DNA of 64,000 nucleotides from Thalassospira lucentensis. Its GTDB lineage: Bacteria; Pseudomonadota; Alphaproteobacteria; Rhodospirillales; Thalassospiraceae. This document shows positions 1 through 53,536 of this stretch, piece after piece. The DNA lies in assembly GCF_032921865.1 (NCBI RefSeq), contig NZ_CP136684.1, positions 3,135,001-3,199,000 on the forward strand, given 5' to 3'. Below the pieces are notes generated by a model. That model did not search any database and was not told the origin of the DNA. It worked only from the letters and a program-made list of their open reading frames with translations. A program made the translations under genes and the position numbers. Each line of letters starts with the position of its first letter. The first letter of the stretch is position 1.

Positions 1-46
1 CATCACGCTTTGCGGGTTTTGGTCCGGGCGCTTTTGTCCCGTTGAC
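1..46 (-). ncRNA. Left-edge copy of a short SOS-box-driven transcript (truncated)
   Basis: Read on the minus strand, positions 85 to 1 align almost without gaps to 52623-52707 on the plus strand: the first 20 bases are identical, and so is a 19-base block ending at the window edge. A transcript would start near 46 from the promoter at 53-81. The second half of the expected terminator hairpin lies outside the window. No start codon is conserved with the other copy, so I read it as RNA rather than peptide. This is inference; the downstream part could instead belong to a gene beyond the edge. Confidence 0.35.
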
Positions 47-52
47 TTTTCT

Positions 53-85
53 TTTCTAGCATAACAAAAAGAACAAATCAAGAAC
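53..85 (-). promoter_or_regulatory. SOS (LexA) box with overlapping sigma-70 promoter, copy 1
   Basis: The minus strand reads GTTCTTGATTTGTTC at 85-71, an exact GTTC-N7-GTTC match to the alphaproteobacterial LexA box. TTGATT (81-76) and TAGAAA (58-53) are 17 bases apart and could serve as -35 and -10, so LexA would cover the -35. The identical box stands at 52623-52637. Confidence 0.55.
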
Positions 86-52500: not shown

Positions 52501-52622
52501 TCCCGCTTTCAGCAAACGACAGGGCCGGCGAAACAGATTTTCCCAACTAAGATATTGAGAAATATATCCTTTCTGTCGTGGTGAGCTTTCGTTGGGAACT
52601 TTTTCCGGGTTTTTGGAATAAA

Positions 52623-52655
52623 GTTCTTGATTTGTTCTTTTTCTTGTGGCATAAA
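52623..52655 (+). promoter_or_regulatory. SOS (LexA) box with overlapping sigma-70 promoter, copy 2
   Basis: GTTCTTGATTTGTTC at 52623-52637 is an exact GTTC-N7-GTTC box. TTGATT (52627-52632) and CATAAA (52650-52655) are 17 bases apart as -35 and -10. The first 20 bases match copy 1 at the left edge. Confidence 0.55.
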
Positions 52656-52661
52656 GATAAA

Positions 52662-52726
52662 GTCAACAGGACAAATGGGTCCGGAGACAAAACCCGCAAA
52701 GCGTGATTCGCTTTTGCGGGTTTTTT
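52662..52726 (+). ncRNA. Short SOS-driven transcript (candidate small RNA)
   Basis: From a start near 52662 to the terminator end the unit is only about 65 bases. It shares blocks TCAAC-GGACAAA and a 19-base stretch into the hairpin with copy 1. A start codon (ATG at 52675) with AGGA ahead of it exists here but not in the other copy, so RNA is more likely than peptide. I know of no described family with this sequence. Confidence 0.45.
52689..52726 (+). terminator. Strong terminator of the SOS-driven unit
   Basis: AAAACCCGCAAAGCG pairs with CGCTTTTGCGGGTTT around TGATT, with one bulged T, and is followed by six T. It is the strongest hairpin in this intergenic region. Confidence 0.85.
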
Positions 52727-52930
52727 GCGTTTCGGGTGGCAAAAGCAGGAATGAGACGATGGCAGGGCAACGATCTGAGATGACATGGCGGGGTTGGTAT
52801 CGCCGAAGGGACGTTACCGGCGCATGGAAAAGTCATTACGGCGATGGTGCGTCCGGGCCGTGAGGCCGTCGGAAATTTACGAAAAACGGGTGTTTATCAT
52901 GACGGGAGAGATGTGCCCTTGGGGCAAGGG

Positions 52931-53386
52931 TGTTTGTTCGGGGCAGGGATAGCCGGGGCGAGGCGAAGTTGGTTCGGTCCAGCTCAGTCCAATCCGGGGC
53001 CAGCCCGGTCGGTGAAGTCTGGCAATGCCGAGGATCAGCAGGCCCGAATTGCGTCTGCACTGGATCGGCTGCCTGAATTGGCTGGCTTGGCCCGGCGATG
53101 GGGCCGATGGTGCATTCCGAGATGTCGAAAGGCCGGTCATCAATGGCGGGATTTGTGCCTGCCATGCGGCAACGCTGTGGCCCTTGGGGCGAGGTGCGTT
53201 TGCGGTGTCCATCGAAAGCCCGAGGTGCTTGTTCGGGACAACCGGGACTGGGGCGAGGCCGGTCTGGTGCAATCCGGTTCAGTTCCTTTCTGTCCTGTCC
53301 GTCCAGCCCACCCGGTCGGTGGCGTTTGGTGATGTCGAGGGGCAGCAGAGCTGGTTGGCTGGATTGGCTTGGGGATGGATCAAAAT
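52931..53386. repeat. Two diverged copies of a non-coding segment
   Basis: About 52931-53105 and 53225-53386 share the order TTGTTCGGG, GGGGCGAGGC, CAATCCGG, CAGCCC...GGTCGGTG and TTGGCTGG...GGCTTGG, with many substitutions and small gaps between. Before each copy stands CCCTTGGGGC. This suggests an old tandem duplication of some 300 bases. Confidence 0.4.
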
Positions 53387-53470
53387 CGTCATTCCGGGCA
53401 GAGCAGAGCGCAGACCCGGAATCCATGCCCGATTGAAAGAGACTGGATTCCCGCCTTCGCGGGAATGACG
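53387..53470. repeat. REP/MITE-like repeat with 9-bp terminal inverted repeats
   Basis: CGTCATTCC (53387-53395) and GGAATGACG (53462-53470) bound 84 bases that fold into two hairpins, including GATTCCCGCCTTCGCGGGAAT (53447-53466 region). This type of dispersed repeat (GATTCCCGC...GCGGGAATGAC) is common in many proteobacterial genomes. A further GGGAATGACA follows at 53480. Confidence 0.75.
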
Positions 53471-53536
53471 ATGAGGTTGGGAATGACAATCGGATTGGGA
53501 GGGCTTTGTCAGCAATCTATCCGGCCCTCCTGTGGT

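Follow-up and report, generated by a model that had tools for sequence, protein, structure and literature searches.

We describe a short regulatory element at positions 52,623 to 52,726 of a 64,000-nucleotide stretch of Thalassospira lucentensis DNA (contig NZ_CP136684.1; hereafter the window, its genome being the source genome, G000). We read it, with somewhat better than even confidence, as a LexA-controlled, terminator-gated leader, behind which the gene would require read-through. A LexA-type box, promoter-like spacing, a conserved leader and a terminator precede a conserved open reading frame (ORF), and the same layout stands before other genes elsewhere. DNA damage would lead to cleavage of LexA, RNA polymerase would start near the GTCAAC block, and a transcript of about 60 nucleotides (nt) would mostly be halted at the intrinsic terminator. 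A basic peptide of 34 amino acids (aa) would be produced only when polymerase reads through, so that the unit would act as a two-step switch of derepression followed by antitermination. LexA binding, the points at which transcription starts and terminates, read-through, translation and any factor or RNA signal permitting read-through are predictions from sequence. The features are the following:

52623..52637 (+): LexA-type box GTTCTTGATTTGTTC, an exact GTTC-N7-GTTC match
52627..52632 (+): -35-like hexamer TTGATT within the box, found by reading, 17 bp from the -10 and unflagged by a consensus scan
52650..52655 (+): -10-like hexamer CATAAA with a TG one base upstream, found by reading and mostly kept in the family alignment A1
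52662..52677 (+): conserved block GTCAAC A GGACAAATG, probably close to where the transcript begins
52669..52682 (+): GGAC..GTCC, which may form a small hairpin according to the predicted fold, its register varying among copies
52689..52726 (+): intrinsic terminator with U-run from the predicted fold, its pairing maintained through compensating changes in 39 leaders
52747..52750 (+): Shine-Dalgarno-like AGGA, found by reading; many copies have AGGA- or GAGG-like bases before the ATG
52759..52863 (+): 34-aa ORF MAGQRSEMTWRGWYRRRDVTGAWKSHYGDGASGP from the ORF translation, matched in place by the peptide profile (E 8e-12)
52618..53518 (+): approximate extent of this copy of the dispersed element by BLAST among copies, with a GC-rich variable part 3' of the ORF
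1..85 (-): second copy (L017), an exact box match at 71-85 plus leader, truncated where the window begins; its peptide ORF falls outside

The unit and its copies in the source genome

The original prediction, made from this sequence alone, was of a small RNA induced by DNA damage, comprising a LexA box over a -35/-10 pair and a terminator soon after it with no gene between. The box is there, as is the pair with its 17 bp spacing; the pair scores 8/12 against a cut-off of 9/12 in a sigma-70-like promoter scan that flagged nothing in the window. The terminator indeed follows with no gene in between, and the leader body has a predicted folding energy of -26.6 kcal/mol (z -4.1). No known Rfam family matches the window above the gathering threshold, nor the interval 52580-52900 at E<=1, in agreement with the suggestion that no described RNA family is involved. 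By contrast, the view that the unit has no gene at all is not supported. The 34-aa ORF starts 32 nt 3' of the U-run, and in 75 of 82 dispersed rows the terminator is immediately followed by such an ORF, a reading frame conserved across copies being one of the outcomes that the original prediction named as refuting it. At the single-copy site a phage structural operon takes this place.

Scores of single sites prove little here, because the promoter scan does not flag the pair, the terminator scan is at chance level and the bare motif is common by chance: a generic scan finds four terminator-like sites in the window against 3.4 in shuffled sequence, and the five bare GTTC-N7-GTTC occurrences (1.99 expected) are a weak excess which 6 of 100 shuffles reach. 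Genome-wide, the bare motif occurs 176 times and its reversed pattern 108 times. It is the family that shows the unit not to be a chance arrangement, the exact 15-mer of the box being found 23 times in the genome and the reversed pattern never. The sequence-only model R1, built from these 23 copies, gives 24 matches, the additional unit (L026) having a box with a single mismatch. The second copy noticed 52 kb away, with its shared blocks, is thus genuine and belongs to a far larger family, and a family of only two copies is ruled out. The -10 region, the GTCAAC block and the terminator are common to the copies; L001 and L021 share least. L001 and L143 (genome G001, contig C65), both leaders without a peptide ORF, occupy the same intergenic site judging from like neighbours on both sides, and the box of L143 is reduced to one half. 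Separately, a chrB-a RNA (Rfam RF03078) was identified in L010 (863-945, minus strand) as the leader of a neighbouring ORF, presumably a chrB-like gene.

Control by LexA

GTTC-N7-GTTC is reported as the alphaproteobacterial LexA motif in PMC8565304. In the source genome it precedes the lexA profile match by some 40-60 nt (on the other strand) and the longest ORF of recA by about 140 nt. Moreover, a box differing by one base from that of the unit (GTTCCTGATTTGTTC) precedes an ORF pair whose second member matches IMS (Y-family polymerase) models and whose first has no Pfam match. We take this pair to be imuAB. Because lexA, recA and imuAB carry boxes of the same form, LexA control of the unit promoter is supported at the level of sequence.

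Among 119 rows gathered by the leader block, 114 distinct units from the genus and from IMG/VR have RTCAAC starting 39-40 nt past the box start, a constancy to be read in the light of their selection by this block. The box 15-mer is intact in 110 of the 114 and one base off in four. The position of the -35 inside the box can explain much of the fixed spacer. Three of the five off-spacing rows (L131, L196, L199) appear chance-like and were rejected as units; the remaining ones are L143, a leader in which half of the box is missing, and L220, a Terasakiella unit that was picked up out of register.

Conservation of the terminator

Compensating changes were counted in 39 hand-picked leaders out of 64 distinct dispersed ones. 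Across them 90% of the terminator pair cells form a pair, and 28 cells are changed on both sides against 14.5 in shuffled alignments, none of 500 shuffles being as high. A hairpin before the U-run is present in each predicted fold of nine prophage-type (including L001), nine Terasakiella and four dispersed leaders, that of L159 being weak (z -1.9).

A family of small basic peptides behind the terminator

We examined the sequence behind the leader in 109 unit rows, namely all 24 of the source genome, 20 of the 27 model matches in G007, 20 of 26 in G027, 20 of 40 in G025, single rows from G028 and G018, and the 23 loci L041-L063, whose genomes have between one and three units. Leaving out L041-L063 as well as L001, L016, L021 and L119, which lie at the prophage site or are not of the dispersed type, gives the 82 dispersed rows from six genomes. 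The ORF is intact with a W..[HR]YG core in 75 of them (SRYGG in four); of the other seven, four run into a contig end and the remaining three represent one decayed site shared by G000, G007 and G027. The ATG lies 14-43 nt past the U-run (median 32, 73 measured ORFs), so close that there is no evident room for a promoter belonging to the ORF itself.

The encoded peptides are 28-38 aa long and basic (net charge +2 to +9, mean +6.2 in 75 peptides), with a W[RK]SHYGG-type core. Codon-position variation in 70 ORFs amounts to 0.28, 0.39 and 0.77 bits, the third position varying most, and lysine is mostly encoded by AAA and arginine mostly by CGG. The ratio of nonsynonymous to synonymous changes (pN/pS), calculated over pairs that are not independent, comes to 0.168 for the core, 0.86 for the N-terminal part and 0.74 overall; counting against selection at the protein level, orthologous pairs show few differences and no clear signal singly. 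Judging from these codon patterns, the peptide core is under codon-level selection. A peptide profile, for which at most 150 candidates of each genome were scored, gives each of the six multi-copy genomes 21-37 matches (E up to 0.1), with one weak broken match in G001 (E 0.045) and none in the other 22. Two peptides scanned against known families gave nothing above cut-off in Pfam or NCBIfam (a single Pfam match at E 0.24, far under it) and nothing in PHROGs, so assignment to a known family was rejected, as was a viral source, no relative being found among the viral contigs. An AlphaFold model has a helix at residues 5-24 and a confidence (pLDDT) of 62. Finally, the source genome harbors an extra, 5'-truncated copy of the peptide ORF near L012 (C2:1899641-1899748; L031, about 4640) that has lost box and promoter.

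Distribution in the genus and the prophage site

A search of relatives with R1, of the kind proposed with the original prediction, gave matches in every one of the 29 genomes of the genus: a single match in 20, two in G005 and in G006, three in G001, and 23-40 in the other six. At all 20 single-copy loci the unit is flanked by a WFWFVRC protein on one side and a head-tail connector motif on the other, and both motifs also accompany the unit in G000 (L016), G001 (L221) and G025 (L119), making 23 of 23 examined; G005, G006, G007, G018, G027 and G028 are outside this count. Connector, capsid, tail and large terminase are profile-confirmed in G004, and similar ORFs were read in the source genome. 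The T7-like structural cluster (L065 with L133 in the source genome, C2:2743000-2780000; L066 with L131 in G004) may be a domesticated prophage or a gene transfer agent of podovirus type. The prophage copy of G025 (L119) bears a dispersed-type leader, as though it had been homogenised with that genome's remaining copies. For the WFWF protein, a fold search gave no match (best PDB E 1.1, best BFVD E 0.096), the best PDB sequence hit had E 0.05, and Pfam offered a weak MarR match (best E 0.0038, the member shown being below cut-off).

A possible unit was found in 25 viral stretches. The exact 15-mer is present in 13 of these; among the 13, the connector motif occurs in 12, the upstream WFWF motif likewise in 12, and the two together in 11. 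The remaining 12 stretches lack box and motifs alike and were rejected as chance matches. In the order, R1 matched 3 of 85 genera (199 genomes), the two g57 matches looking like plain LexA promoters of another gene. A pattern combining box and RTCAAC occurs in 22 of 317 genomes, from 2 of 115 genera (reversed control, one match), and in 3 of 385 genomes of the class, where the G250 match is chance-like; this pattern misses 12 of the 29 own-genus genomes detected by R1.

A like leader in Terasakiella

The second genus with a like leader is Terasakiella, in which box, RTCAAC block and hairpin plus U-run are present in 12 units from five of six genomes. These units were sought by the block, with GTTC-N7-GTTC being part of the query pattern; R1, which has no fixed pattern, also recovered seven of them. 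The promoter spacing differs from that of Thalassospira while the leader block and hairpin/U-run are kept; the box spacer varies, and some units have a TTGAC-like -35 behind the box. In 10 of the 12 units a second terminator-like hairpin was seen by eye before the gene. PG_binding_1 was identified in all nine scanned downstream proteins, one of them also carrying CHAP and another Peptidase_M23, and a gene of the same peptidoglycan-binding type follows L139, by eye. The proteins behind L157, L135, L158, L178, L220, L189, L188, L190 and L185 share a PG_binding_1 N-terminus and differ in their C-termini, which apart from the CHAP and M23 ones have no Pfam match; a further ORF lies behind some of these genes. 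Their domain composition makes them candidate bacteriocin- or lysin-like genes.

Age and movement of the element

BLAST among copies shows likeness up to +895 from the box, many copies sharing 400-900 nt behind it and a stretch that begins 5-30 nt before it, and the region 3' of the ORF varies in length and sequence. A palindromic repeat (ATTCCCGCCTTCGCGGGAATGAC, window 53447-53469) is present near the end of the element, and similar repeats lie behind several single-copy units. The upstream flank of 17 of the 24 source-genome copies is matched by a fetched copy from G007, G027 or G018 at 84-98% identity, suggesting that the copies are mostly old and stable; the misses do not represent absences, since only some copies were fetched. 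The neighbour of the window copy, presumably hemN, also stands beside a unit in G007, G027, G018 and G028. Its distance from the box is 914-1545 nt across the five genomes, which rules out a chromosomal rearrangement at the window copy. G025 has no listed unit within 8 kb of hemN.

Alternative explanations

The succession of promoter, early terminator and gene, with several cargo types in two genera, points to the layout of a terminator-gated leader, and its occurrence at many sites leads us to prefer a regulated leader over a free-standing small RNA. The LexA-type promoter and the short terminator-bounded unit of the original prediction thus stand, and it is the free-standing RNA that fits less well. 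Even so, the main rival is a small RNA of about 45-65 nt, induced by the SOS response and acting in trans, with the gene behind separate or secondary. We judge it unlikely. It would account for the 5' block RTCAAC N3 ANAANTG being kept in two genera despite different promoter spacing (in units sought by this block, seven of which R1 found too) and for the conservation of the terminator by compensating changes, and it sits well with L001, which has no same-strand ORF of at least 80 aa directly behind its leader. A same-strand gene follows at most sites examined, however, and 23-40 copies per genome would be unusual for such an RNA.

Less probable still is that the unit is a dispersed repeat, a non-autonomous mobile element carrying promoter and terminator with no present regulatory role at most sites. 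The long stretch shared behind the box with its start just upstream, the leap from one copy to 23-40 in six genomes, several copies at contig ends, and the hemN-side unit found in five relatives with none listed in G025 are all in keeping with mobility. Against this, the shared upstream flanks argue for stability, the pN/pS of the peptide core is low, and the box is far better kept than the rest. We consider it very improbable that the repressor acting at the box is an S24 protein encoded near the prophage and not LexA, the logic being otherwise the same. An HTH-S24-like gene was recognised by motif near the prophage unit in all three regions read, with Peptidase_S24 confirmed in one, and the box spacer is nearly invariant in the genus, more so than in lexA, recA and imuAB. 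Much of this invariance can be accounted for by the overlapping -35, the spacer varies in Terasakiella (GTTC-N7-GTTC being in the query), and the imuAB box differs by only one base.

Several observations also weigh against the terminator-gated leader itself. Two of five covariation measures for the terminator are not above shuffles, and covariation lends no support to the small upstream hairpin, which was ruled out as a conserved structure. In the source genome, L001 and L021 are leaders without an intact peptide ORF, L021 having just a KSHYGR string inside a longer ORF about 280 nt behind; likewise, 2 of the 12 Terasakiella units (L159 and L177) precede other ORFs, with no second terminator seen. 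Neither an antiterminator gene nor a site for one was detected, antiterminator families not having been searched for, and the WFWF protein lacks a fold match. The leader could also be a plain attenuator with constant leakage.

If read-through of the terminator-gated leader is regulated, the signal would be either a protein acting at the promoter or an RNA signal in the 5' block. We lean towards the transcript or its first bases, because the 5' block recurs in two genera despite different promoter spacing. The sequence between -35 and -10, where an antiterminator protein of the Q or AlpA type would have its site, is conserved, but it doubles as half of the LexA box. Since a like leader precedes the T7-like structural operon as well as the Terasakiella peptidoglycan-binding proteins, the leader is probably part of a phage- or lysis-type late programme.

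Relation to known systems

The closest parallels are antitermination systems. A tested parallel is reported in PMC7969949: AlpA of Pseudomonas aeruginosa lets polymerase pass terminators located just 3' of its promoters, for example at PA0807, with predicted terminators 26 and 247 bp past the start. As described there, the AlpA system (alpBCDE, PA0807) resembles the unit in its response to DNA damage, in one or two intrinsic terminators between promoter and gene, and in its lysis-type cargo, and differs in that no LexA box on its promoter is described in the parts of PMC7969949 consulted. The Thalassospira unit, in turn, differs in its many dispersed copies with a peptide, and no AlpA-like gene or binding element was found, within the limit on antiterminator families given above. 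In phage lambda with Q, the late promoter pR' produces a short transcript terminated at tR', with the phage structural genes behind. Our unit would share this succession of late promoter, short terminated transcript and structural genes; it differs in the direct LexA-type box on its promoter and its many chromosomal sites, and no Q gene was identified, within the same limit.

The operator sequence is that of the alphaproteobacterial LexA/SOS regulon, as seen here at lexA, recA and imuAB. We know of no comparable leader-terminator unit within the described regulon, and neither this unit nor an SOS leader in this genus was found in the literature, subscription papers being mostly outside the search. 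TisB and SidA are SOS-controlled small proteins encoded by a small ORF under a LexA box, and are comparable in this respect. The present peptides differ from them in being basic, with a W[RK]SHYGG-type core, and in lying behind a terminator in tens of copies. Their charge does not fit a type I toxin of the TisB kind, which is a hydrophobic membrane peptide.

Biological meaning

A broader scenario, which we hold tentatively and regard as doubtful, is that the late-gene switch of a domesticated T7-like prophage, made up of SOS promoter and terminator leader, was copied to 20-40 chromosomal sites and at most of them came to control a small cationic peptide. A single damage signal together with a single antitermination signal would then fire the particle genes and all of the peptides at once. 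If this is true, its novel element would be a genome-wide antitermination regulon together with a new small-protein family. SOS-triggered antitermination would then work as a regulon across many loci of the chromosome instead of in a single phage operon, and the regulon would be tied to a vertically kept phage particle cluster. It would also reveal a family of small proteins with 21-37 profile matches in each of six genomes, within a system that spans one leader type, three main cargo types and two genera.
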